From the NCBI GenBank assembly GCA_903855945.1, contig CAIOAK010000160.1, forward strand, positions 1 through 34,712: 34,712 nt of DNA, given 5' to 3'. The DNA comes from an uncultured Anaeromyxobacter sp. (lineage in GTDB: Bacteria > Myxococcota > Myxococcia > Myxococcales > Anaeromyxobacteraceae). The position numbers were made by a program, and so were the translations under genes. Below, in pieces: positions 5,437 to 22,601 of the stretch (the first letter of the stretch is position 1; every line of letters starts with the position of its first letter). A model generated the notes under the pieces. The model saw nothing but the letters and a program-made list of their open reading frames with translations. It did no database searches and was not told the DNA's origin.

Positions 5437-6813
5437 CTACCCCATTCCGTGCTTCTTCAGCCGGTAGCGAAGCGTGTCCCGGGTGATGCCGAGCAGCCGC
5501 GCCGCCCTCGACTGGTTCCCGCTCGTCCGATCGAGCGCCTCCTGGATGAGCTTCCGTTCCACATCCTCCAGGACCAGCCCGTCGGGGGGTACGTTGGGGG
5601 AGCGATCGACCCGCCGGACCGCCGGCGCGCCACGGAGCTCCGGCGTCAGGTGCTCGGGACGAAGCTCCTCGACCCCGGCGTGGAGGATGAAGGCCCGCTC
5701 CACCACGTTGCGGAGCTCGCGAACGTTCCCCGGCCAGCGGTGGGCCTGGAGCATCTGCAGGGCCGCCGGGCTCACGCCCTTCACGTTTCCGCTCATCTCC
5801 TCGTTGAACCGGGCGATGAAATGGACGCAGAGCGTGGGCACGTCCTCGGGATGGTCGCGCAGCGGGGGCACCACGATGCGCACCACGTTGAGGCGGAAGA
5901 AGAGGTCGGAGCGGAAGCGCCCCTCGGAGACCCGCTGCTCCAGATCCACGTTGGTGGCGGCGAGCACCCGGACGTCCGCCCGGAGCTCGGCGACGCCTCC
6001 CACGCGCCGGAAGGCCTTGTCCTCGAGGAGGCGGAGGAGCTTGGCCTGGCCGCCGGGGTGCAGGTCCCCGATCTCGTCGAGGAGCACCGTGCCACCCTCG
6101 GCGCTCTCGAAGAGCCCGCGCTTCTGCGCGTGGGCGTCCGTGAAGGCCCCCCGCTCGTGACCGAAGAGCTCGCTCTCGAGCAGGTGCTCGGGCAGGGCCG
6201 CGCAGTTCACCTGGAGGAAGGGCCGCTCGGTGCGACGGCTGGAGCGGTGGATGGCCCGGGCCACCACCTCCTTGCCGGTGCCGCTCTCCCCCTCGATGAG
6301 CACGGTCGTCGCGTCCCCGCCCGAGAGCCGGCCGACGACGCTGCGGATCCGCTCCATCTCCGCGGAGTTCCCCACCAGGTCCATCGCCTCCGAACCGCCC
6401 CGGCGCTCCTGCGCGAGTTCCTGGATCTGCCGGCGTGTCTGCGCGGTCTGGAGCGCACGAGCGACCGCCCCGTCGAGCGCCTGGAACGGGAACGGCTTCA
6501 CCAGGAAGTCGACGGCGCCGTGCTTCATGGCCTCGACCGCGATGTCCACCGTGCTGTGGGCCGACATCATGATGACGGGCAGGTCCGGGGACAGGGCGAG
6601 CGCCCGCTGCAGCGTGACGAGGCCATCGATTCCGGGGAGGCGGACGTCGAGGAGCATGAGATCGGGGGACCGGGTGGCCACGGCGTCGAGCGCCTCCTCC
6701 CCCGACTCCGCCGAGACGACCTCGAAGCCGCCGCGCTGGAGACGCTCGCCCACCGACCAGCGGATGAGCTTCTCGTCGTCGACGACCAGGATGCGGGTGG
6801 GCGTTTCGGTCAT
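5437..6813 (-). CDS. NtrC-family sigma54-dependent response regulator (system 1)
   Basis: A 458-residue transcription activator. The receiver domain is at residues 7-118, with D12, D13, phospho-acceptor D56 and K106. The AAA+ sigma54-interaction domain spans about 145-370, with Walker A GESGTGKE at 175-182 and Walker B VLLDEIGD at 243-250; a Fis-type helix-turn-helix follows at about 418-458. The sigma54-contacting loop reads GAFTDA (222-227) instead of the commoner GAFTGA. ATG 6813 overlaps the stop of the upstream kinase (ATGA), so kinase and regulator are co-translated partners. Phosphorylation by that haem-motif kinase is inferred from this overlap. Likely targets are the sigma54-type promoters found before the kinase and the radical SAM gene. 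No obvious terminator follows it before rplC. Confidence 0.94.
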   Translation of the reverse strand: MTETPTRILVVDDEKLIRWSVGERLQRGGFEVVSAESGEEALDAVATRSPDLMLLDVRLPGIDGLVTLQRALALSPDLPVIMMSAHSTVDIAVEAMKHGAVDFLVKPFPFQALDGAVARALQTAQTRRQIQELAQERRGGSEAMDLVGNSAEMERIRSVVGRLSGGDATTVLIEGESGTGKEVVARAIHRSSRRTERPFLQVNCAALPEHLLESELFGHERGAFTDAHAQKRGLFESAEGGTVLLDEIGDLHPGGQAKLLRLLEDKAFRRVGGVAELRADVRVLAATNVDLEQRVSEGRFRSDLFFRLNVVRIVVPPLRDHPEDVPTLCVHFIARFNEEMSGNVKGVSPAALQMLQAHRWPGNVRELRNVVERAFILHAGVEELRPEHLTPELRGAPAVRRVDRSPNVPPDGLVLEDVERKLIQEALDRTSGNQSRAARLLGITRDTLRYRLKKHGMG

Positions 6814-8315
6814 GCGGGATTCTCCACGGAGCGGTCCGAAGCGGCCGCGGCCGGTGGGAAGCCTACCGTGAAGGTGGTCCCCCCGCCCAACGGGCAACGA
6901 TACCCGATGGTCCCGCCGTGCTCGGCCACGATCCGCGCCGAGATGGCGAGCCCGAGGCCGTTCCCCTCGCGCTTGGTGGTGAAGAAAGGCTTGAAGAGGT
7001 GCGGGCGGACGCTCTCGGGGATCCCGGGGCCGGTGTCCTCCACGGTCACCGTGACCCGGCCATCGACCACCCGGGACCGAACCACGAGCCGGCCTCCATC
7101 CGTACCCATGGCCTGGCAGGCGTTCAGGCAGATGTTCAGGAAGACCTGCTCGAGCCGTTCGGAGTCGGCCATCACCGGCGGCATCGACCCCAGGTCGGCC
7201 TCGACCTCCACGCTGCCGAGCTTGCGCTGCTGCCGCACGAGGAAGAGCACCTTCTCGAGCGTGAGGTTGAGGTCGCTCTCCCGGAGCCTCGGCCGGGGGG
7301 GACGGGCGAACGAGAGGAGGCTCTCCATCGTGCGGCCGAGACGCGCGACCTGGTGTCGCATCTCCCCCACCATCTCGGCCTGGCGCGGGTTCCCGGCCAG
7401 GTCCTCGGCGAGGAGCTCGAGGGCGCCGGACAGGCCGGCCAGCGGGTTCTTGATCTCGTGCGCGAGCCCGGTGGCCAGTTCGCCGACGGTGGCGAACCGG
7501 TCGGCCCGGGCCATGCGTTCCCGGTAGAAGGCTTCCAGCTCGGTCTGGCTGCGCCGAAGGGCAGCCAGCGTGGCGTCGAATCCGCGCGCCGCCGTGCCGA
7601 GCTCGTCGCTCCTCCCCTCGTCGGCGCGGACCGCCAGGTCGCCCGACTCGGCCCGCGCCATCGCGGCGACGAGCCGCTTCAGCGGGGCGACCGCCTCCCG
7701 CCCGACCAGCCACCAGGCGATGGCGAGCAACGCGAGCAGCGCGAAACCCGCGCTGATGGCGAGCGTCCGGGCGATCTGCGCCTGGGCCGCCACGGCCGGC
7801 GCCCGGGTGAATCGAAGATCCAGCCAGCCGTTGATGCGGGCGTCGCGCCCGTGGCACGCGGTGCACCGGGAGCCGTTCGCCACCGGGCGAAGGACGGCGT
7901 ACTGGGAGGTCTCCCCGCCCGCCTCGAAGACGAGCCGGGGCTCGTGCATGGACCTCATGTCCCCCCAGGGGCGTGTACCGATCAGCCGCCGGTCGGTCGA
8001 GTAGGCCACGTCACCGCTCGAGCGCAGGAGGCTGATCGACTCGAGATCGGCGCGGTGGCTCCGGGCCAGCTCGAGGATCTCGACCACCTGCGCCGGCGCC
8101 CCGTCGGCCATCGTCTGGGTCACACCGCTCGCGACGTTGGCCGCGAAGATCTCCGCCCGCTCCCGCTGGACCTTCTCGATGTCGGCCCCGTACGCGCGTA
8201 CCGCCGCGTAGACCATCGCACCGAGCACTGCGGCGAAGAGGATGGCCGTCGGTAGCAGGATCCGGGCCCGCACGCTGCCGTCCAGCCGGCGCCAGAGATT
8301 TCGAAGGGCTTCCAC
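6810..8315 (-). CDS. Sensor histidine kinase with periplasmic CxxCH haem motif (system 1)
   Basis: Membrane kinase of about 501 residues. Transmembrane segments are at about 18-40 and 183-204. The extracytoplasmic domain between them contains CTACH at 151-155, a c-type haem attachment motif, after a PAS/cache-like stretch. HAMP follows (about 204-257), then the HisKA domain with phospho-acceptor H286 in GLAHEIKNPLAG, and the HATPase domain with NACQAMG, DTGPGIP and GNGLGLAI. The start used is GTG 8315; GTG 8273, with GGA upstream, would shorten the cytoplasmic tail without touching TM1. A sigma54-like promoter lies just upstream. Haem attachment would occur in the periplasm, so the signal is probably redox state, oxygen, NO or an electron donor/acceptor; this is inference. 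Confidence 0.93.
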   Translation of the reverse strand: MEALRNLWRRLDGSVRARILLPTAILFAAVLGAMVYAAVRAYGADIEKVQRERAEIFAANVASGVTQTMADGAPAQVVEILELARSHRADLESISLLRSSGDVAYSTDRRLIGTRPWGDMRSMHEPRLVFEAGGETSQYAVLRPVANGSRCTACHGRDARINGWLDLRFTRAPAVAAQAQIARTLAISAGFALLALLAIAWWLVGREAVAPLKRLVAAMARAESGDLAVRADEGRSDELGTAARGFDATLAALRRSQTELEAFYRERMARADRFATVGELATGLAHEIKNPLAGLSGALELLAEDLAGNPRQAEMVGEMRHQVARLGRTMESLLSFARPPRPRLRESDLNLTLEKVLFLVRQQRKLGSVEVEADLGSMPPVMADSERLEQVFLNICLNACQAMGTDGGRLVVRSRVVDGRVTVTVEDTGPGIPESVRPHLFKPFFTTKREGNGLGLAISARIVAEHGGTIGYRCPLGGGTTFTVGFPPAAAASDRSVENPA

Positions 8316-9856: not shown

Positions 9857-10510
9857 TCAGGGGTCGACGCGGATGACGCCCTGGCGAAGCGCGAATCGAA
9901 CGAGCTCGGTCCGATTGTGGAGCCCGAGCTTCTCCATCACCTTCTCGCGGTGGGACATCGCGGTCTTCACGCTGATGCCCAGCACGTCGGCGACCTCCTT
10001 GTTGGCGAGCCCCTCTGCGACGAGCTTCAGCACCTGCTTCTCCCGGTCGGTGAGCGACTCGTACCGATCGCCCCCGCCCTCCGCCGCCGGACCCGAATCC
10101 TCCATCGCCGTGCGCGCCACCTCCGGATCGAGGACCAGCCCCCCGCGATGGACGGCCCGGATCGAGTTCGGCAACTCGGCCCCGGCCGACTTCTTCAGCA
10201 GGTAGCCGGAGACGCCGGCCTTCAGCAGCCGGCGCACGTATTCCCGGTCCTCGTACTGGGAGAGGATCAGGATCTTGGCCCGGAGCCCCGCCTTCTTGAT
10301 CTCGAGGGTGGCCTCCAGGCCACCGAGCCCGGGCATGGCGATGTCCATCACCACGACGTCCGGGTCGAGCTTGCGGGTGGCCTCGATGGCACCCTGGCCG
10401 TCCACCGCCTCCCCGACCACCTCGATGTCCTCGCAGAGCGCGAGCAACGCACGGACTCCCTCGCGGAGGATGGCATGATCGTCGGCGAGCAGAACGCGGA
10501 TCTTCGACAT
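9857..10510 (-). CDS. NarL/LuxR-family response regulator (system 2)
   Basis: A 217-residue two-domain regulator. The receiver domain (about 4-120) has D10, D11, phospho-acceptor D56 and a Lys in the GYLLKKSA segment. A linker precedes the C-terminal LuxR-type helix-turn-helix (about 150-215), with the signature LTDREKQVLKLVAEGLANKEVA. Its ATG lies three bases after the stop of the HisKA_3-type kinase gene, the normal partner class for NarL regulators, so the two almost certainly form a pair. It is last in the run that begins with the nine-haem cytochrome. Unlike the other two regulators here it would work with sigma70-type promoters. Confidence 0.95.
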   Translation of the reverse strand: MSKIRVLLADDHAILREGVRALLALCEDIEVVGEAVDGQGAIEATRKLDPDVVVMDIAMPGLGGLEATLEIKKAGLRAKILILSQYEDREYVRRLLKAGVSGYLLKKSAGAELPNSIRAVHRGGLVLDPEVARTAMEDSGPAAEGGGDRYESLTDREKQVLKLVAEGLANKEVADVLGISVKTAMSHREKVMEKLGLHNRTELVRFALRQGVIRVDP

Positions 10511-10513
10511 CGG

Positions 10514-12364
10514 CTAGCTCTCCCTCGGAAGCGGTACGGCGAGGCGGATGCGCGTCCCCTGACCCGGCGTCGATTCGATGCTCACCTTTCCACCCAGGAT
10601 CTCCACCCGTTCCTCGATCCCCATCAGCCCGAAGTGGCGGCGGTCCGCGTGGGACACGTTGCCCGGATCGAAGCCGCGCCCATCATCCTCGATCTCGATG
10701 CGGATCTCACCCTCGACCTCGGTGAGTTGCACCAGGACGCTCTCCGCGTGGGCGTGGCGCGCGATGTTGCTCATCGCCTCCTGACAGACCCGGAAGAGCG
10801 CCGTCTCGAAGGCCGCCGGATAGCGATGGTCGAGCGCGTCGAACTCGCAGCGCACGGAGATGCCCCGGGTCGCCAGGTGGCGCTCGGCGTACCAGCGGAT
10901 GGCGGACTGGAGCCCCAGGTCGTCGAGGACCGAGGGGCGCAGGTCCAGGATCATCCGGTGGACCTCCTCGATGGTCCGCACGGCGAGGGCCTTCGCCTCC
11001 TCCAGGCGGGGGGTATAGCCCGCCTTGAGCGCGGCCAGCGAACCGTCGATGGCCATGACGAGGGCGGCCAGGCTCTGGCTCGTCTCGTCGTGCAGTTCCC
11101 GGGCGATGCGCTTCCGCTCGTCCTCCTGGGCCGACACCACCTTCTCGTAGAGCCGTCCCAGCGCCAGTTCGCGCTCGCGGAGCTGCTCGTTGGCCTTCCC
11201 GAGCTGTGCGGTCCGCTCGATCACGCGCGCCTCGAGCTGGGCGTTGGCGTCCGCCACCGCACCGAGGAGGCGGGAGAGCGATTCGCGCATCCGCTCCAGG
11301 GCCATCGCGAGCCGCCCCACCTCGTCCTCGCCCAGCGCCGGGATGGGGGCCGAGAGGTCGCCGCCCGCGATGGTCTCGGCGGCACGCGTGAGCGCGACCA
11401 CCGGCCCCGCGATGCTCCGCGCCGCCCCCCAGGCCAGCATCGCCCCGGCGAATACCGACACCAGGATCATGCCCCCGAGCCAGGTCGGGATGGCACCCGA
11501 GGTCCCCATGACCTCGGATGCGGGGACCCGGGCCACGACCGCCCAGGGCGCGTTGGCGACCCAGGCGGTCGTCACCGCCGCGCGCCCCTGGGCGTCCTCG
11601 GAGCGCCCCGCATGGCAATCGCGGCAGAGCTTCGCCGTCCCGGTTCCCTCGGCGACCAGACGACGGACGCCGGTGCACGCGGTCGTGGAGGTGGGCCTCC
11701 CCGGCTCGGTGGTGGCGAGAACCCGCCCGGAGCGGTCGAGCAACTCGGCCGTGCCCTCCGTCCCCTGCCGCAGGTAGCGGAGGAGCACCTGGAAATGGTG
11801 CTGACTCGTGTCCACCACCCCACCCACGACGCCGGTGATGCTGCCGTGCCAGTCCCGCACCGGGACGAGCTGATAGACGTGGTCGCCCGACCGGCCCTCC
11901 ACGAACCCCGTGACCGCCGGACGTCCGGTCTCGATGGCGGTCCGGACCGCCGGAAGCCCGGCGACGGGCGCCATCGACCGGGCGCCTCGGCCCGGTTCCT
12001 CCGCGAGCACCTGCCCCGCTGCGTCGAGGAAGAAGGCGCCGCCGGGGAACTGGAGCCCCACGCGCGGGTCGCGGAGCGCCGCCCGCTCCGGCTCGACGTC
12101 GCGGTCCTCCAGGTTCACGTGGGAGGCGGTGGCGGCGCGCTGGAGCACCTCGAAACCCTGGAGCAGTTCCTCCTCGACCTGGGCGGCCACCGTGCGGGCC
12201 GACCACTCCCGGGCCGCCACGAGCTGCTGGTCGAGCCGAGTGACGCGCACCCCGAAGGCCCAGGCGAGCAGGCCGACCGGGATGACGGCGCTCACGGCGA
12301 GCAGGAGGTAGACGCGGGTCTGCAGCGAGCTGCGCAGACGGTCCCGGAGCGAGGAACCGCTCAT
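10514..12364 (-). CDS. NarX-like (HisKA_3) sensor kinase with cache domain and CxxCH (system 2)
   Basis: A 616-residue membrane kinase. TM1 is at about 18-38 and TM2 at about 293-313, enclosing a large periplasmic double-cache-like domain. The membrane-distal part is preceded by coiled coil, and the membrane-proximal part carries CRDCH at 247-251, a haem-c motif, with an extra Cys at 230. HAMP follows (about 313-366), then a coiled coil (about 370-412), the dimerisation/phospho-acceptor helix with H425 in RKRIARELHDETSQ, and a HATPase domain (NIARHA, DDGRGFD, GLMGI). ATG 12364 overlaps the previous stop (ATGA); longer reading upstream would run into that gene. The partner is the NarL-type regulator immediately downstream. 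The signal is probably redox-linked through the haem, which is inference. Confidence 0.93.
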   Translation of the reverse strand: MSGSSLRDRLRSSLQTRVYLLLAVSAVIPVGLLAWAFGVRVTRLDQQLVAAREWSARTVAAQVEEELLQGFEVLQRAATASHVNLEDRDVEPERAALRDPRVGLQFPGGAFFLDAAGQVLAEEPGRGARSMAPVAGLPAVRTAIETGRPAVTGFVEGRSGDHVYQLVPVRDWHGSITGVVGGVVDTSQHHFQVLLRYLRQGTEGTAELLDRSGRVLATTEPGRPTSTTACTGVRRLVAEGTGTAKLCRDCHAGRSEDAQGRAAVTTAWVANAPWAVVARVPASEVMGTSGAIPTWLGGMILVSVFAGAMLAWGAARSIAGPVVALTRAAETIAGGDLSAPIPALGEDEVGRLAMALERMRESLSRLLGAVADANAQLEARVIERTAQLGKANEQLRERELALGRLYEKVVSAQEDERKRIARELHDETSQSLAALVMAIDGSLAALKAGYTPRLEEAKALAVRTIEEVHRMILDLRPSVLDDLGLQSAIRWYAERHLATRGISVRCEFDALDHRYPAAFETALFRVCQEAMSNIARHAHAESVLVQLTEVEGEIRIEIEDDGRGFDPGNVSHADRRHFGLMGIEERVEILGGKVSIESTPGQGTRIRLAVPLPRES

Positions 12365-12930
12365 CGGGTCTCCCCGTGCGTGCTGCGCGCCATGCGGAGG
12401 AGGTCCTCGAGCGAGCCGCGCCCCCGCAGCAGGAACCGGCGCCCTCCCCGGCTCCAGTCGAGCTGGCTCCAGAGCGTGCCATCCTCCGCCACCACCCGGG
12501 CGAGCACCGCGCCGTCGCCCAGCGGGGCGCTCTGCTGCTGGATGATCGCCAGGCGCCCCTGGAGCCCCTCGGGGATGGCGCGATCGGTCACGGACTCCAC
12601 GAGCAGCAGGGCCGGCGTGCCGTCCTTGCCGAGGAAGTCGAGGGCCACCGCGCCGCCCTCGTCGCGGGTGAAGCGCACGCCGCTCGGCGGCCATCGCAGC
12701 GTATCGGGGAAGTAGGAGGGGAGCAGCACCTTGGTCTGCAGCCGTCGCTCCGCGTCCTCCACCGTGTCCACCCGGCGAACGCCGCGCGGCTGCCCGTGAA
12801 GCCAGGTGGGAACGGAGTCGAGGGTGGCGAGCGCCGCGACCGTGCCCCCCAGGACGAGGGTCATGGTCAACAGCGCACGTGCGCCCTCGCTCACCGTGCT
12901 TCCCATCCCGGCGACCCTCGCGGCGGTCAT
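12361..12930 (-). CDS. Unknown membrane-anchored protein, 189 residues
   Basis: I do not recognise a specific family with confidence. A hydrophobic segment at residues 17-37 is followed by an extracytoplasmic domain of about 150 residues. This domain contains LLPSYFPDTLRWPPSGVRF and alternating beta-strand-like segments, somewhat like anti-sigma-linked or outer-membrane sensor domains that follow a single N-terminal anchor. It is locked between the M56 peptidase gene and kinase 2 by ATGA overlaps at both ends (12927-12930 and 12361-12364). That arrangement strongly suggests a shared task, for example as a substrate of the peptidase or an accessory to the kinase sensor. Both options are inference. 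ATG 12930 was chosen because of the overlap; a second Met nine residues in is possible. Confidence 0.7.
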   Translation of the reverse strand: MTAARVAGMGSTVSEGARALLTMTLVLGGTVAALATLDSVPTWLHGQPRGVRRVDTVEDAERRLQTKVLLPSYFPDTLRWPPSGVRFTRDEGGAVALDFLGKDGTPALLLVESVTDRAIPEGLQGRLAIIQQQSAPLGDGAVLARVVAEDGTLWSQLDWSRGGRRFLLRGRGSLEDLLRMARSTHGETR

Positions 12931-16009: not shown

Positions 16010-16354
16010 CTACCGATGGCAGAGGTCGCAGGAGTCGAAACCGAAGGCCGCCTTGCCGTGGCAGGTGCCGCACTGCCCGCCCTTCTCCATCACGTCGTGC
16101 CGGATGGGCTTCCCGTCGGCCGTGGCGCCCGGCGAAAGCGTCTTCCAGAACTTCGGGTGGCAGGTGGTGCACCCGGGCTTCTTCGGGTCCACGTGGCTCC
16201 CGTGGCTGAAGGTCACCTTCCCAGGGCTTCCGTCCGACGGCTTGAAGGTGTAGTCGGCCGGCAGCTTGTCGAGCCCCCCGGCGGCCGCCGTGGAGGCGAC
16301 CAGGACCGCGAAGAGCAGGGTGAGACGGCGAAGCGTCCTCGCGATGCGGGTCAT
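16010..16354 (-). CDS. Trihaem c7-type periplasmic cytochrome
   Basis: A 114-residue exported protein with a Sec signal peptide (about 1-25, ending TAAAGG) and three CxxCH motifs: CTTCH at 62-66, CGTCH at 95-99 and CDLCH at 109-113. The FSHGSH segment before the first motif is typical of the c7-type trihaem domain, where such His residues serve as distal haem ligands. ATG 16354 overlaps the NrfD stop (ATGA). As the last gene of the redox operon it is the likely periplasmic acceptor or donor for the ferredoxin/NrfD module. Confidence 0.93.
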   Translation of the reverse strand: MTRIARTLRRLTLLFAVLVASTAAAGGLDKLPADYTFKPSDGSPGKVTFSHGSHVDPKKPGCTTCHPKFWKTLSPGATADGKPIRHDVMEKGGQCGTCHGKAAFGFDSCDLCHR

Positions 16355-17586
16355 GGCGTGCCTCCGTGGCTTCCAGCCTGCTCCTTCATCGGGGAGAGCA
16401 CCGGCATCCGGAGCACGATCCAGCGGAAGGCGAGGACGCCCACCACCACGAGCATGAGGGAGACCGCGATCTCCATCCAGCTGGGCCAGTAGCGCACCGG
16501 CTGGTTGTAGTTGTAGGCCACGAGCGACACGTTGAGCCGGTTGAGGACGATGCCCACCACGCCCAGGATGGCCGCCACGCGCACCACCGTGATGTGCCGG
16601 TAGCGGGCGCCCCAGGCGTACATCAGGGAGGGAAGCAGGACGAAGCCCAGCATCTCGAGGAGCCACCACTTGCCGTAGAACCCCACGCCGATGAGCCCGA
16701 GCGCGTGGTTGTCGATGACCCCCTGCAGCTTGAGGAAGAAGTAGGCGAACATCACCACCGCGCCGGCCTTGGCCAGGCCGAAGGTCACCTTCTCGATGTC
16801 CACGTGGTGCCCCTCGAGCTGGTCGGAGAAGATCTGGTGGGAGATGGTGCTCTCCACGATGACCATGGAGATGCCGGCGATGACCGCGCTGATGAAGAAG
16901 AAGATGAAGATCTGGCCCGAGTACCAGAGCGGGTGGAGCTTGTGCGGGGCGATGATGAAGAGGGAGCCGAGCGCCGACTGGTGCATCGTGGAGAACATCA
17001 CCGAGAGCACCGTGAGGGCGAGCAGCAGCTTCTTGAGCGGCCGGTAGAAGCGCTCCCAGCCGAGCCACTCGAAGAGCGGAACGGCGAACTCGAGGAAGAG
17101 GACGGTGGTGTAGCAGGCCACGCACCATGCGACCTCGAAGAGGACCGACTGGGTGCCGTTGTTGGAGAAGATGCCCACCATGTTCCAGGGCTTCCCCAGG
17201 TCGGCGATCAGGCCGATCACCGCCATGAGATAGCCGAGGAAGCCGGTGAGGATGGCGGGGCGCTCGATGGCGTGGAACTCCTCCAGGTTGAAGATCTCCA
17301 CCGCCGCACCGATGGTGAACCCGCCCGCGGCCAGGGCGATGCCGGTCATCATGTCGAAGCCGATCCACAGGCCCCAGGGCTGCGTCTGGGAGAGGTTGGT
17401 GGTGGCCCCGAGGCCGGCGGCGAACCGGTAGACGATCAGCGGCACCCCCACCGCCAGGATGGCGGCGCAGACCACGTTGAAGGGCGTCCAGAGCGATACG
17501 AGGTACTCCCGCATCGTCATGCCGAGCAGGATCCGCTCCTGCACCCACGAACCACCCGGTCGGGCCGGTGCCCCTGAGCTAGCCAT
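16351..17586 (-). CDS. NrfD/HybB-family quinone-interacting membrane subunit
   Basis: A 411-residue protein with about ten hydrophobic helices and no haem ligation pattern. The segment TNLSQTQPWGLWIGFDMM near residues 63-80 is characteristic of HybB-type subunits of hydrogenase-2 and related complexes. These oxidise or reduce (mena)quinone and pass electrons to a four-cluster ferredoxin subunit. ATG 17586 overlaps the ferredoxin gene's end by eight bases; an upstream in-frame ATG at 17628 would add a low-complexity stretch encoded antisense to a tandem repeat and is unlikely. No hydrogenase or other catalytic gene is next to it, so it probably couples the quinone pool to the cytochromes here. 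Confidence 0.93.
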   Translation of the reverse strand: MASSGAPARPGGSWVQERILLGMTMREYLVSLWTPFNVVCAAILAVGVPLIVYRFAAGLGATTNLSQTQPWGLWIGFDMMTGIALAAGGFTIGAAVEIFNLEEFHAIERPAILTGFLGYLMAVIGLIADLGKPWNMVGIFSNNGTQSVLFEVAWCVACYTTVLFLEFAVPLFEWLGWERFYRPLKKLLLALTVLSVMFSTMHQSALGSLFIIAPHKLHPLWYSGQIFIFFFISAVIAGISMVIVESTISHQIFSDQLEGHHVDIEKVTFGLAKAGAVVMFAYFFLKLQGVIDNHALGLIGVGFYGKWWLLEMLGFVLLPSLMYAWGARYRHITVVRVAAILGVVGIVLNRLNVSLVAYNYNQPVRYWPSWMEIAVSLMLVVVGVLAFRWIVLRMPVLSPMKEQAGSHGGTP

Positions 17587-18478
17587 GGTCGCCTCCCTTG
17601 CCGTTGCCCTTGCCGTTGCCCTTGCCATCCCGATGCGAGAACGCCCAGAGACCCATGAGCAGCGGGGGCCAGAGCGTCATCACCACCGGTGGAACTCCCA
17701 GCGCTCCCCGGACCAGCCGGGGATAGGAGTTGTCGTTCACGGCCACCTCGAACCCCAGCTTCTCGAAGGTGATGTCGGTGATGTAGAGCCAGTTGGTCCC
17801 GCCGGCCTCGTGCTCGCCGTAGATGTGCGGGGTGTACTTGTCGGGGTTGCCGTAGACGCGCCCTCGCGCCTCGGCGATGAGCCGTCCGCGGGTTCCGTAG
17901 GTGAGCGCGCCGCTCGGGCAGACGCTGGTGCAGGCCGGTGGCTTCCCCTGCGCCTGCCGACTCGAGCAGAACGTGCACTTGCGGACGACGGGGAGCGCGC
18001 TCGCGTACTGGTACTTCGGCACGCTGAAGGGGCAGGCCACCATGCAGTACCGGCAGCCCATGCATTTCGAGCCGTCGTAGGACACCGGGCCAGTTTCCAG
18101 CTTGTCGAGCGCGCGAACCGGGCAGGCCGACGCGCAGGCCGGCTCCACGCAGTGCATGCACTGCCGCTTCACGAACCGGGGTGAGCCGTCGGGCTTCTCG
18201 GCCCGGAGGACCACGGTGAAGCAGTCCGGTCCGGTGTTCCGGCGGGTGGCGAAGGCCTCCGCGTCGGAGGGAGGGTCCGGGAGCTTGTTGGCCTCGGCGC
18301 AGGCGGCCTCGCAGCCCCTGCAGCCGATGCACTTCGTGGTATCGACGAGGACGGAACTCTCGTCCTCCCCGGCCACCGGGATGCCGTCAGCCGCCGGGGT
18401 CCTGCCCGGAAGCGCGACGAGCGCCGCGGTTCCCGTGGCTCCTGCGATCTGGAGGAAGTGTCGTCTACCGAGCTTCAT
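17579..18478 (-). CDS. HybA-like ferredoxin subunit, four [4Fe-4S] clusters, Tat-exported
   Basis: A 299-residue protein. It begins MKLGRRHFLQIAG, a twin-arginine signal, so it is folded in the cytoplasm and exported with its clusters. Sixteen cysteines fall in four groups: C50/53/56/60, C107/110/115/119, C139/142/145/149 and C168/171/183/187, the HybA/DmsB pattern. A C-terminal hydrophobic helix (about 263-281) anchors it, followed by a tail of Gly-Lys-Gly-Asn repeats. ATG 18478 overlaps the stop of the small Cys-rich gene (ATGA). It should carry electrons between NrfD and the trihaem cytochrome on the periplasmic side. Confidence 0.95.
   Translation of the reverse strand: MKLGRRHFLQIAGATGTAALVALPGRTPAADGIPVAGEDESSVLVDTTKCIGCRGCEAACAEANKLPDPPSDAEAFATRRNTGPDCFTVVLRAEKPDGSPRFVKRQCMHCVEPACASACPVRALDKLETGPVSYDGSKCMGCRYCMVACPFSVPKYQYASALPVVRKCTFCSSRQAQGKPPACTSVCPSGALTYGTRGRLIAEARGRVYGNPDKYTPHIYGEHEAGGTNWLYITDITFEKLGFEVAVNDNSYPRLVRGALGVPPVVMTLWPPLLMGLWAFSHRDGKGNGKGNGKGGDHG
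17595..17626. repeat. 12-bp tandem repeat encoding the Gly-Lys-Gly-Asn tail
   Basis: The unit CCCTTGCCGTTG (plus strand) is repeated about 2.5 times. On the coding strand it specifies GKGN repeats at the C terminus of the ferredoxin subunit. Because the unit is a multiple of three, copy-number changes would lengthen or shorten the tail without a frameshift. Confidence 0.8.
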
Positions 18479-18699
18479 GTGCGGGCCCCCTTCTTCTCCT
18501 TCGATTCCGCGAGCTCGGTCTCGAGCTCCTCGATGGTGTGCAGCGCGCGAGAGAGCGCCTCCTTGTACAGGGTGCAGGCGCTGAAGCCCTCCCCCTCGCA
18601 GGTGGAGGCCGTGGTGATCCGATCGCTCGGGATGAGCTTCTTCTGCGCGGATGCCTGGCAGAACACCATGGTCACTTCGGTGAGGTAGGGGCAGCTCAT
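18475..18699 (-). CDS. Small Cys-rich cytoplasmic protein, first gene of the redox operon
   Basis: A 74-residue protein with GGGAGGA eight bases before ATG 18699. Four cysteines (C3, C14, C34, C42) sit in a compact N-terminal part containing CPYLTEV, VFCQASAQKKLIP, STCEGEGF and ACTLYKE; the C-terminal third is a charged coiled coil (about 44-70). There is no signal peptide. The spacing suggests binding of one metal or FeS cluster, but I do not recognise a named family. It overlaps the ferredoxin gene by four bases (ATGA). A role as a maturation factor, chaperone for the Tat substrate, or redox-sensing partner of the ferredoxin is possible; none is proven. Confidence 0.8.
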   Translation of the reverse strand: MSCPYLTEVTMVFCQASAQKKLIPSDRITTASTCEGEGFSACTLYKEALSRALHTIEELETELAESKEKKGART

Positions 18700-18725
18700 C
18701 GTTCGTTCCTCCCAGCCTTTCCCTT

Positions 18726-18741
18726 TTCAAGGGGCGGGCCA
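18726..18741 (-). promoter_or_regulatory. Sigma54-like promoter of the ferredoxin/NrfD/trihaem operon
   Basis: On the minus strand TGGCCCGCCCCTTGAA matches TGGCACG-N4-TTGCA except for one base in each box (A to C at -24, C to A at -12). The start would be near 18716, about 17 nt before ATG 18699 with GGGAGGA in between. An NtrC-type activator gene lies directly upstream, and a 14-bp inverted repeat is 38-165 bp beyond the promoter. Confidence 0.55.
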
Positions 18742-18778
18742 AGCGGGCTCCATCGGACCCTCGGTGAAATGCGCCCTC

Positions 18779-18890
18779 TTCACGGATGGTTGGGATGGGG
18801 ACATCCGGCTCGGGTCGCAGCCCCCCGGATGGGTCCCGATGCGTTTCTCAACGGATGAAAGCGCCACACCGAGGCGCAACCATCCGTGAA
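18779..18890. promoter_or_regulatory. 14-bp inverted repeat, candidate enhancer pair
   Basis: TTCACGGATGGTTG (18779-18792) recurs exactly in inverted orientation as CAACCATCCGTGAA (18877-18890). A related half, TCAACGGATGAAA, is at 18848-18860. The pair lies between the NtrC-type regulator gene and the sigma54-like promoter, at the distance typical of upstream activating sequences. Binding by the adjacent NtrC-type protein is inferred. Confidence 0.55.
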
Positions 18891-18974
18891 CACTGACGTT
18901 TATGGCGCTGCGTCGCGGGGTGTCGAGAACTTCACCGTTCGTCGAATAACTCGGCACCCGCCCGGGTCGGGGCA

Positions 18975-20347
<1,373 letters not shown>

Positions 20348-20351
<4 letters not shown>

Positions 20352-20881
20352 CTCGCCTCCCCACCGCTGCGCATCACGCGTCCGCGGCACGTCGTGCAGA
20401 ACTCGCCCCGCTTCTTGTCCACGTCCCTCGCGCCGGACGAGCGCCCCATGACACATCCCGGGCGGTCGCAGTGGACCAGCCCGAAGCAGTGGCCGAGCTC
20501 GTGGACGGACTCCTTGGCCAGCCGCTCCAGCGCCACGCGCGGGTCGGGGAGACCCGGCTCGCCGAGCCGTGCGCTGGAGACCACGGCCGCCCGCCCGCCC
20601 AGTTGCGCCTCGCCGAAGACGAAGGTGAGGATGGGGATGAAGAGGTCCTGGTCGGTCACCGCGAGCACCAGACCCGGCGGCCCGGACTGGACGAGCCACG
20701 CCAGGATCCGCGATGTGGACCACTGCTTGCGCCGGGCGTCGTAGGCGTCCGGGGGGCGGGCCGGGTCGTCCCAGACGGCCACGGGGAGGCCGATGGCTCG
20801 CCCCAGGTGGAGCTGGAGGTGCTCGAGGGTCCGGGGCCCGGGGTCCTTCTCGCCGATCCACCACAGGTGTATGGCCTCCAC
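20348..20881 (-). CDS. amzA: Archaemetzincin (M54 metallopeptidase)
   Basis: A 177-residue cytoplasmic protein. The active-site motif HExxHxxGxxHC is complete: H127 E128 L G H131 C F G L V H137 C138. A second, structural zinc site C138-x4-C143-x18-C162-x2-C165 includes the Met two residues after C143 that is part of the archaemetzincin signature. The start codon is GTG at 20881, one base after the kinase stop, and the stop overlaps the regulator start (ATGA). Archaemetzincins are aminopeptidase-like in the few tested cases, and their biological role is poorly known. Here its insertion between a haem-motif kinase and its regulator suggests a function in that signalling pathway, for example turnover of a component. 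Confidence 0.9.
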
Positions 20882-20882
20882 G

Positions 20883-22601
20883 TCACGATCCGTGCGAGGC
20901 GGGGACGCGGATGGTGAACCGGGTCCCCTTCCCCGGCTCGCTCTCCACCGTCACCTTCCCCTTGTGCCGCTCGACGATCCCGTAGACCACCGAGAGGCCG
21001 AGTCCGGTGCCCTTCTCCTTCGTGGTGAAGAAGGGGTCGAAGATCTTCAGCATCAGCTCCTTCGGGATGCCCGGGCCGTCGTCCTGGAAGACCATCTCCA
21101 CGGCGTCGTCCTCCGGGAGCGGCCGGGTGGTGATGCGCAGCCGCCCTCCCTTGCCCATGGCCTCGACGGCGTTCATGACGATGTTGACGAAGGCCTGCCG
21201 GAGCTGGCCGAAGTCGCCCAGGACCAGCGGAACCCGGGCCAGATCCTTCTCCACCACCACGCCCACCATGGCGATCTGGTTCGCCACGAGCTGCAGGACC
21301 TCGTCGAGGACGTGGTTCACGTCTACGGGCTTCAGCGCCAGCGGCCGCTCCCGGGCGAAGTCGAGCAGGTTGCGCACGATGGCCGTGCAGCGCTCCGTCT
21401 CCCGCTGCACGAGCGCCAGCTGCTTCACGAGGGTGCGCCGCTCCACCTCGCCGACCGGCCCGTGCTCGATGGTCCGGATCATGAGCTTCGCGAAGGTGAG
21501 GATCCCGGCCAGCGGATTGTTGATCTCGTGGGCGATGGAGGCCGAGAGCTTGCCGAGCGAGGAGAGCTTCTCGGTGCGGACGAGCGTGTCCTGGGCTGCC
21601 CGCAGCTCGCTGGTGCGCTCCTCGACCTTGTGCTCCAGCTGCTCGTTCAGCGCCTCCAGCTCCCCCTCGACCCGTGCGAGCGACCGGGTCATCTCGTTGA
21701 AGGAGGCCGCCAGCAGCCCGAGCTCGCCGCGGAAGTCCACGTGCAGCTCGGTGCCGAGATCGTCGTGGGCCACCCGCCGCGTGGCCTGCACGAGCGCCTC
21801 CACCGGGCGCACCACCCGGTGGGAGGCCACCCACCAGAACACCGAACCGAGCAGGAGGGCGAGGAGGGCCGTGACGAGGAGGCTGACCCGGCGGAAGGTG
21901 AGCAGATCGTGGTCGACGGAGGCGAGCGACACGCCCGTGTCGAGGACCCCCAGGACCTGGGCGGTTCGCGGGTGGGCGTGGCAGGCGGCGGTGGTGCAGT
22001 CGGGGCTCGACCGGATGGGGGTGACGATGGAGAGGACGCGACCCTGCTGCCCCTCGTAGACCCGCGCCCGGAGCGCGTCGATGGGGACGGTGAGGTTCTC
22101 GTTCTCCCCGTGGCAGGCGTTGCATCCCTCGGCCCGCTTGTCGACGAGCTGGCCGCGCTCGCCCCCCACCGTGGAGAAGGTGATCCGCCCCTCCTTGTTG
22201 ATGATCCGGACGTGCGCGATCTGCCCCTGGCGGCCGACGTTGTCGATGATGGAGTAGGCGTCGCTCCGCTCGTCCTTCAGCATGGCGTGCCGGATCGACG
22301 CGGCCACGGTCTCCGAGACGAGTGCGGTGGCCGCCGTCGCGCTGGCGATCCGCTGCCTCGAGATGGTCGTCTCCACCACGGCGAAGGCGACGATCGAGGC
22401 CACCACGAGCGCCGCCACCACGCCGAGGAGCTGGGTGGAGATCCGATCGCGCCAGGGGATGGAGTCGAGCGCCGAGCGATCGTGGCCGTGGCCCGACGCG
22501 CCACCGGGTTTCGACCCGCTCGTCCTTCCCGCTTCCTGCAACCGTGCCTCCCGGCAATCGCGATCCGCCACGAGCCTACTCCCCTCGCGGGAAACGTCCA
22601 T
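20883..22601 (-). CDS. Sensor histidine kinase with two haem-c motifs (system 3)
   Basis: A 572-residue membrane kinase with TM1 at about 57-78 and TM2 at about 238-260. The periplasmic domain between them contains CNACH at 160-164 and a second, wider motif C202-TTAA-CH at 207-208 (Cx4CH), so it may bind two c-type haems. HAMP follows (about 260-312), then a coiled coil (about 305-342), HisKA with H358 in SASIAHEINNPLAG, and HATPase (NAVEAMG, DDGPGIP, GTGLGLSV). The first 50 residues are polar and poorly conserved-looking, so a start later than ATG 22601 is possible. It begins an operon with archaemetzincin and the NtrC-type regulator and diverges from purU. Confidence 0.92.
   Translation of the reverse strand: MDVSREGSRLVADRDCREARLQEAGRTSGSKPGGASGHGHDRSALDSIPWRDRISTQLLGVVAALVVASIVAFAVVETTISRQRIASATAATALVSETVAASIRHAMLKDERSDAYSIIDNVGRQGQIAHVRIINKEGRITFSTVGGERGQLVDKRAEGCNACHGENENLTVPIDALRARVYEGQQGRVLSIVTPIRSSPDCTTAACHAHPRTAQVLGVLDTGVSLASVDHDLLTFRRVSLLVTALLALLLGSVFWWVASHRVVRPVEALVQATRRVAHDDLGTELHVDFRGELGLLAASFNEMTRSLARVEGELEALNEQLEHKVEERTSELRAAQDTLVRTEKLSSLGKLSASIAHEINNPLAGILTFAKLMIRTIEHGPVGEVERRTLVKQLALVQRETERCTAIVRNLLDFARERPLALKPVDVNHVLDEVLQLVANQIAMVGVVVEKDLARVPLVLGDFGQLRQAFVNIVMNAVEAMGKGGRLRITTRPLPEDDAVEMVFQDDGPGIPKELMLKIFDPFFTTKEKGTGLGLSVVYGIVERHKGKVTVESEPGKGTRFTIRVPASHGS

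Follow-up and report, generated by a model that had tools for sequence, protein, structure and literature searches.

A predicted sigma54-dependent control region of a respiratory operon in Anaeromyxobacter, with three putative enhancer dyads and a separate inverted repeat

What does the interval between positions 18700 and 18974 of this Anaeromyxobacter contig control, and which protein would act on it? In the window, as the whole stretch of 34,712 nucleotides analyzed here is called, the interval lies between the gene of an NtrC-type regulator (regulator 3; 18975-20366, minus strand) and that of a small Cys-rich protein (18475-18699, minus strand), both of which are as described in the original prediction. 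That prediction combined a sigma54 promoter with a circuit leading from a histidine kinase (kinase 3) via regulator 3 to the operon, and regarded an inverted repeat in the interval as the site of the regulator; the promoter and the circuit have stood, whereas the repeat as a regulator 3 site has not.

The interval probably controls a sigma54-dependent operon, which would be activated by regulator 3 at three dyads. In the mechanism proposed here, kinase 3 would phosphorylate regulator 3, and the phosphorylated regulator would occupy the dyads at 18956-18940, 18937-18921, and 18853-18837, from where it would loop to the promoter at 18741-18726, at which sigma54 RNA polymerase would be positioned, and open it. 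The operon placed under this control would encode the small Cys-rich protein, an HmcB-like Fe-S protein, an NrfD/HmcC-like membrane protein, and a trihaem c7 cytochrome, and the inverted repeat would be a second, separate element around the third dyad, serving some other protein.

The operon, its regulator, and the kinase

The first gene of the operon encodes a 74-residue protein that has no Pfam or NCBIfam match and in which four Cys, at positions 3, 14, 34, and 42, are invariant among 14 aligned sequences. It is followed by a 4Fe-4S protein with a likely Tat-type leader (17579-18478, minus strand; Fer4_11), which is closest to HmcB/HybA, by an NrfD-type membrane protein closest to HmcC/HybB (16351-17628, minus strand; PF03916), the true start of which lies inside the 5' part of the ORF, and by a trihaem c7-type cytochrome with three CxxCH motifs (16010-16354, minus strand; PF14522, TIGR04257). 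In NCBIfam, the Fe-S protein is best matched by HmcB and the NrfD protein by HmcC, with scores of 326.7 and 447.4 bits that lie below the curated equivalog cut-offs of 420 and 550, and the arrangement also differs from the Hmc complex in that the partner here is a small trihaem c7 protein. Beyond the trihaem gene, a cytochrome with nine CxxCH motifs and then a cytochrome b561-type protein are encoded on the same strand.

Regulator 3 consists of a receiver with the acceptor Asp, a sigma54-activation AAA+ domain, the GAFTGA-type loop of which reads GSFTGA, and a Fis-type helix-turn-helix (Pfam), and the phospho-acceptor motif, G[AS]FTGA, and the helix-turn-helix are kept in all 11 regulators examined. 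Kinase 3 (20883-22601, minus strand) combines HAMP, HisKA, and HATPase domains with a sensor part that carries a CxxCH and a CX4CH motif. Both motifs are present in 12 of 12 kinases (kinase 3 and 11 related ones, from 11 loci), a count that leaves out the reversed hits of 28-30% identity in the Acidobacteriota loci L100 and L101, the partial one in L103, and an edge fragment in L076. CX4CH can hold haem, as in class III cytochromes, and by its two c-type haem motifs kinase 3 probably senses the periplasmic redox state or a haem ligand. In Pfam, the sensor part gives a weak sCache_3_2 hit only, with no hit to DUF3365 at E 0.001. The sCache_heme sensors, which are described as extracytoplasmic CxxCH sensors fused to histidine kinases, with a tested signaling member that has the properties of an NO sensor (PMC12889525), are similar in their architecture but differ from kinase 3 in these profile results and in the second motif. 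Because of the weak single-Cache hit, kinase 3 is said here to resemble the haem-bearing Cache sensors and is not counted among them.

An archaemetzincin gene (M54; 20348-20881, minus strand) lies between the kinase 3 and regulator 3 genes. It is found in seven of the eight family loci read, being missing in L075, as well as in three of six Acidobacteriota loci and near the kinase that accompanies a regulator fragment in L105. Elsewhere in the window, another NtrC-type regulator is encoded at 5437-7866 (minus strand), and a HisKA_3 kinase with a LuxR-type response regulator (the latter at 9857-10510) at 9857-12694 (minus strand).

The small Cys-rich protein was detected in 17 of the 60 genomes searched (its own included), all of them from one family, where it occurs in 17 of 24 genomes. 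A second collection yielded 17 loci with the small gene in all, including six of Acidobacteriota, with named records that point to Anaeromyxobacteraceae as the family (Anaeromyxobacter oryzae, A. oryzisoli, A. sp. PSR-1, and metagenome-assembled genomes); among the genomes scanned, the protein was confined to Anaeromyxobacteraceae and Acidobacteriota. An orthologue of regulator 3 with 71-100% identity (93-94% within the own genus) is present in 20 of the 24 family genomes, the best match in the other four being at most 50% identical, and it lies directly upstream of the small gene in 17 of the 17 family genomes that have this gene (G007 included). In line with the circuit as originally predicted, the kinase, regulator, Fe-S, NrfD, and trihaem genes stand together in 8/8 family loci read (11-13.5 kb each, with extra kinase copies in L076), and the regulator orthologue accompanies the operon in 4/6 Acidobacteriota loci. 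In these four (L100, L101, L103, and L104), regulator 3 has 68-72% identity, whereas L105 holds a 51% identical fragment and, in L106, regulator 3 was not found within the fetched locus. The module may have moved between the two phyla, Myxococcota and Acidobacteriota, as judged from the sequences. The cross-phylum identity of regulator 3 is higher than that of its closest paralogues within the family, which is roughly 50%.

Three family genomes (G011, G015, and G020) have the regulator and lack the small gene, in the place of which there is a 24-codon membrane-like ORF, followed by the Fe-S gene. In all three, a promoter of the same sigma54 kind lies before this ORF, together with the dyads and the inverted-repeat motifs (elements B and C, see below), and in two of them (L071 and L073) about 1.7 kb lies between the regulator and the control region, which stays with the operon. 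Since they are kept despite the swap of the gene and the insertion of about 1.7 kb, the cis elements are linked to the operon itself, rather than to its first gene or the 3' end of the regulator gene.

The promoter and its -12 element

The promoter is a sigma54-type -24/-12 site of the form TGGCCCG-N4-TTGAA at 18726-18741 (minus strand); its sequence, TGGCCCGCCCCTTGAA, is the reverse complement of these positions and begins 42 bp 5' of the ATG at 18699. It scores 11/12 against the sigma54 consensus, with A or C accepted at position 5, a score that none of 1000 Markov shuffles of this 100-bp segment reached, and on both strands of the 34.7-kb window there is one further site only that scores at least 10/12. 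For comparison, 26 orthologous regions were used, 17 with the small Cys-rich gene, three with the swapped gene, and six from Acidobacteriota, so that 20 of them belong to Anaeromyxobacteraceae. The -24 GG with standard spacing to the -12 element is present in 26/26 of these regions and TGGC in 25, which upholds the original assignment of a sigma54-like promoter at the right distance from the Cys-rich gene. When eight loci were tested singly, L012 and L022 were matched equally well by 83 and 132 of 1000 shuffles, respectively. Since single-locus matches are thus not always beyond chance, the case for the promoter rests on its position and on joint conservation.

The -12 dinucleotide is GC in 19 of the 26 regions, GA in four, and GG in three. 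The C of the GC pair is missing from the present locus, which has GA; this C is strongly but not absolutely preferred, as some E. coli sigma54 sites lack it (PMC4551910), and the site is therefore best described as an orthologue of the sigma54 promoter with a deviant -12. What had been taken for a flaw in the motif is instead conserved throughout the genus, in which GA is found in 4/4 loci from four genomes, so that it is not noise.

The deviation raises the alternative that the promoter has decayed in this genus, with TTGAA no longer serving sigma54 and the operon being served by a different promoter or by transcription that runs on from the regulator gene. The uniform GA of the genus, along with GG in the three loci of two other genera (two of genus g2 and one of g5), would agree with such a loss. 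However, TGGC, TTG, the spacing, and the three dyads are all kept, the regulator is well conserved within the genus, and a sigma70-type site was not found in 18300-19300, which together make decay highly improbable. RpoN is present as one copy in 9/9 genomes searched, and no change that would compensate for GA was found in the helix-turn-helix or the RpoN box of these nine genomes, as these parts are usually placed in the protein; within the last 170 residues, the genus differs by a single H-to-R replacement, 43 residues from the C-terminus. The GA at -12 would be expected to leave the promoter leakier than one with GC.

A second TGGCCCG-N4-TTGAA occurs at L127:1742-1757 (C171:23741-23756 of the own genome), directly before an ORF with a signal-peptide-like start, and could possibly be another sigma54 promoter with GA at -12.

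Enhancer dyads and the inverted repeat

The upstream regions have in common a 17-bp dyad, CGTYGAG-N3-CTCRACG, at about -258, -240, and -155 from the ATG. In the window, its counterparts are UAS1 (TGCCGAGTTATTCGACG, 18940-18956, minus strand), UAS2 (CGGTGAAGTTCTCGACA, 18921-18937, minus strand), and UAS3 (CGTTGAGAAACGCATCG, 18837-18853, minus strand), the last of which is found at the same place in 4/4 genus loci. A loose scan with up to four mismatches gave 76 matches in 17 regions of 450 bp, where 100 shuffles averaged 22 and never exceeded 35; as about three such matches per 450 bp also occur across the coding-rich window, loose single matches mean little. With a single mismatch, the dyad is found at 80 places genome-wide, compared with 39 for the reversed pattern, UAS1 and UAS2 themselves having three mismatches each to the consensus.

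For a stricter test, a matrix was built from 33 distinct sites in family loci outside the own genus; by it, UAS1, UAS2, and UAS3 take ranks 1, 2, and 5 among the 34,696 positions of the window, in which no other cluster of three occurs. The third-best dyad match exceeded that of 400/400 shuffles in 4/4 genus loci and in five of the six Acidobacteriota loci, none of which was used in training; the consensus had first been drafted by eye on loci that included the present one, which makes the genus test, though not the Acidobacteriota test, mildly circular. The exception is L101, with 0.158 for the third-best match and 0.003 for the best. The upstream sites of NtrC-type activators are described as lying about 100 bp or more from the promoter (PMC7057263, PMC4641369), and such regulators as typically binding dyads of this sort in tandem, for example NmpR of Myxococcus xanthus (PMC11841059). 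The three dyads here, conserved in position and about that far upstream of the promoter or farther, correspond to this and are likely to be the sites of regulator 3.

The regulon was searched with a sequence-only model of the UAS1-UAS2 pair built from 17 sequences. This locus was the best match in 5/5 genomes with the regulator, all five of which are in the training set and hence not independent, and nothing was found under E 0.01 in 2/2 genomes lacking it. The next match in the own genome (C161:9254) overlaps long ORFs, that in G020 (C70:35261) lacks a sigma54-type site of 10/12 within 500 bp, and both were set aside.

The inverted repeat that had been noted upstream of the promoter is indeed exact, its arms, TTCACGGATGGTTG (18779-18792) and CAACCATCCGTGAA (18877-18890), being complementary at 14/14 positions with 84 nt between them, and it is the sole exact 14-mer inverted repeat within 200 bp in the whole window. 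Such a repeat arose in 6 of 20,000 shuffles of 18701-18974, but also in 20 of 100 shuffles of the whole window, so that taken alone it is modest evidence, and it is the comparison with relatives that makes it real. Both arms are copies of a motif distinct from the dyads, GYAAC-N4-CGTGAWC, which forms element B around the proximal arm (18778-18793, minus strand) and, in the opposite orientation, element C around the distal one (18876-18891, plus strand); with a matrix trained outside the own genus, C ranks 1 and B ranks 4 of 69,394 in the window. Element B is in place with at most three mismatches in 17/20 family loci, with L018, L021, and L022 lacking it. In seven of the 20 loci, namely 4/4 of the own genus and three very similar Anaeromyxobacter loci, a reversed copy C lies 97-98 bp from B, and C points forward in the three genomes with the swapped gene. 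By this comparison the repeat is a real family-level element, separate from the predicted regulator 3 sites.

Originally, the repeat had been predicted to be the footprint of regulator 3. In the corresponding alternative, regulator 3 binds B and C, and the GTYGAG dyads serve another protein, such as the LuxR-type regulator at 9857-10510, the gene of which is present in 22/24 family genomes; the exactness of the repeat, its usual enhancer distance, and the high ranks of its arms for a motif derived from family loci would all fit. Against it, matches to the B/C motif stay within chance in all six Acidobacteriota loci (best-hit P 0.10-0.84), four of which have a regulator 3 orthologue and in which dyads are present, B is missing from three of the 20 family loci that possess regulator 3, and the LuxR-type gene persists in 3/4 family genomes without regulator 3. 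This reading is improbable, and the dyads, not the repeat, are assigned to regulator 3, because they accompany it across two phyla and the repeat motif does not. As the repeat does not follow regulator 3, B and C are likely bound by a different protein. The LuxR-type regulator was considered for that role too, for which its distribution was not decisive.

B and C could instead be a bending site of the IHF or HU kind that aids the contact between enhancer and promoter and is not a regulator's operator. B lies between UAS3 and -24, a frequent place for bending proteins, and DNA looping is often IHF-assisted (PMC7057263). A general bending protein should, however, have many such sites, whereas the 16-bp motif is sequence-specific and, coding matches aside, was found only at this locus in six genomes scanned; C is moreover inverted, and the motif is unlike the IHF consensus, all of which leaves a bending site unlikely. 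In that scan, 3 of 11 exact places were at this locus and the other eight in or beside long ORFs without such a promoter, a 9/12 sigma54-like match near one of them (L081) having been disregarded. Nor did the genome scan for the 14-mer, proposed with the original prediction, reveal a regulon: the own genome (4.07 Mb, 213 contigs) holds the two known exact copies, no third one, and 12 places with two mismatches. A binding array of CGGATG/CATCCG, five copies of which start between 18783 and 18881, compared with a maximum of three in 300 window shuffles, was rejected, being absent in relatives and having the repeat arms themselves as two of its copies.

The reading preferred for B and C, a binder other than regulator 3, can tentatively be extended to a repeat that is the operator of a second regulator. 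The two copies of GYAAC-N4-CGTGAWC, which face each other head to head at a distance of about 98 bp, lie on either side of UAS3, and their binder might gate the enhancer, and where the -12 is GA or GG and the silencing of sigma54 would be relaxed, the second regulator may supply the off state.

Related systems and biological meaning

BccR/CbcBA of Geobacter may be an analogue of the circuit, and BccR was not found in the literature searched. This search, which is not proof of absence, also gave nothing recognized as dealing with this control region. The closest published analogue found is DVU3142 with ohcBAC of Desulfovibrio, in which the gene of an enhancer-binding protein adjoins a multihaem cytochrome/Fe-S/membrane operon with a sigma54 promoter and predicted sites, which persist where operon genes are lost (PMC4641369). 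There the regulator gene is divergent, whereas here it lies upstream on the same strand, and the present system differs further in its haem-motif kinase and in a module that reaches another phylum. NmpRSTU of Myxococcus xanthus likewise joins a myxobacterial NtrC-type regulator, tandem dyads before sigma54 promoters, and a haem-dependent kinase on top, but its dyad is GCGCA-N5-TGCGC, its kinase domain is cytoplasmic and of the globin type, and several operons are regulated (PMC11841059). The circuit is of a known kind; what is of interest in it is the loss of the -12 C and the additional element formed by B and C.

With this, a guess from a single genome has become a testable module that occurs in two phyla and joins a predicted three-site enhancer and its regulator to a respiratory operon and to a kinase carrying two haem motifs. 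The orthologous sigma54 promoters with GC, GA, or GG under orthologous activators form a natural series on whether the -12 C keeps them silent. If the repeat is indeed the operator of a second regulator, Anaeromyxobacteraceae would have a two-key sigma54 promoter, built on an enhancer that they have in common with Acidobacteriota.
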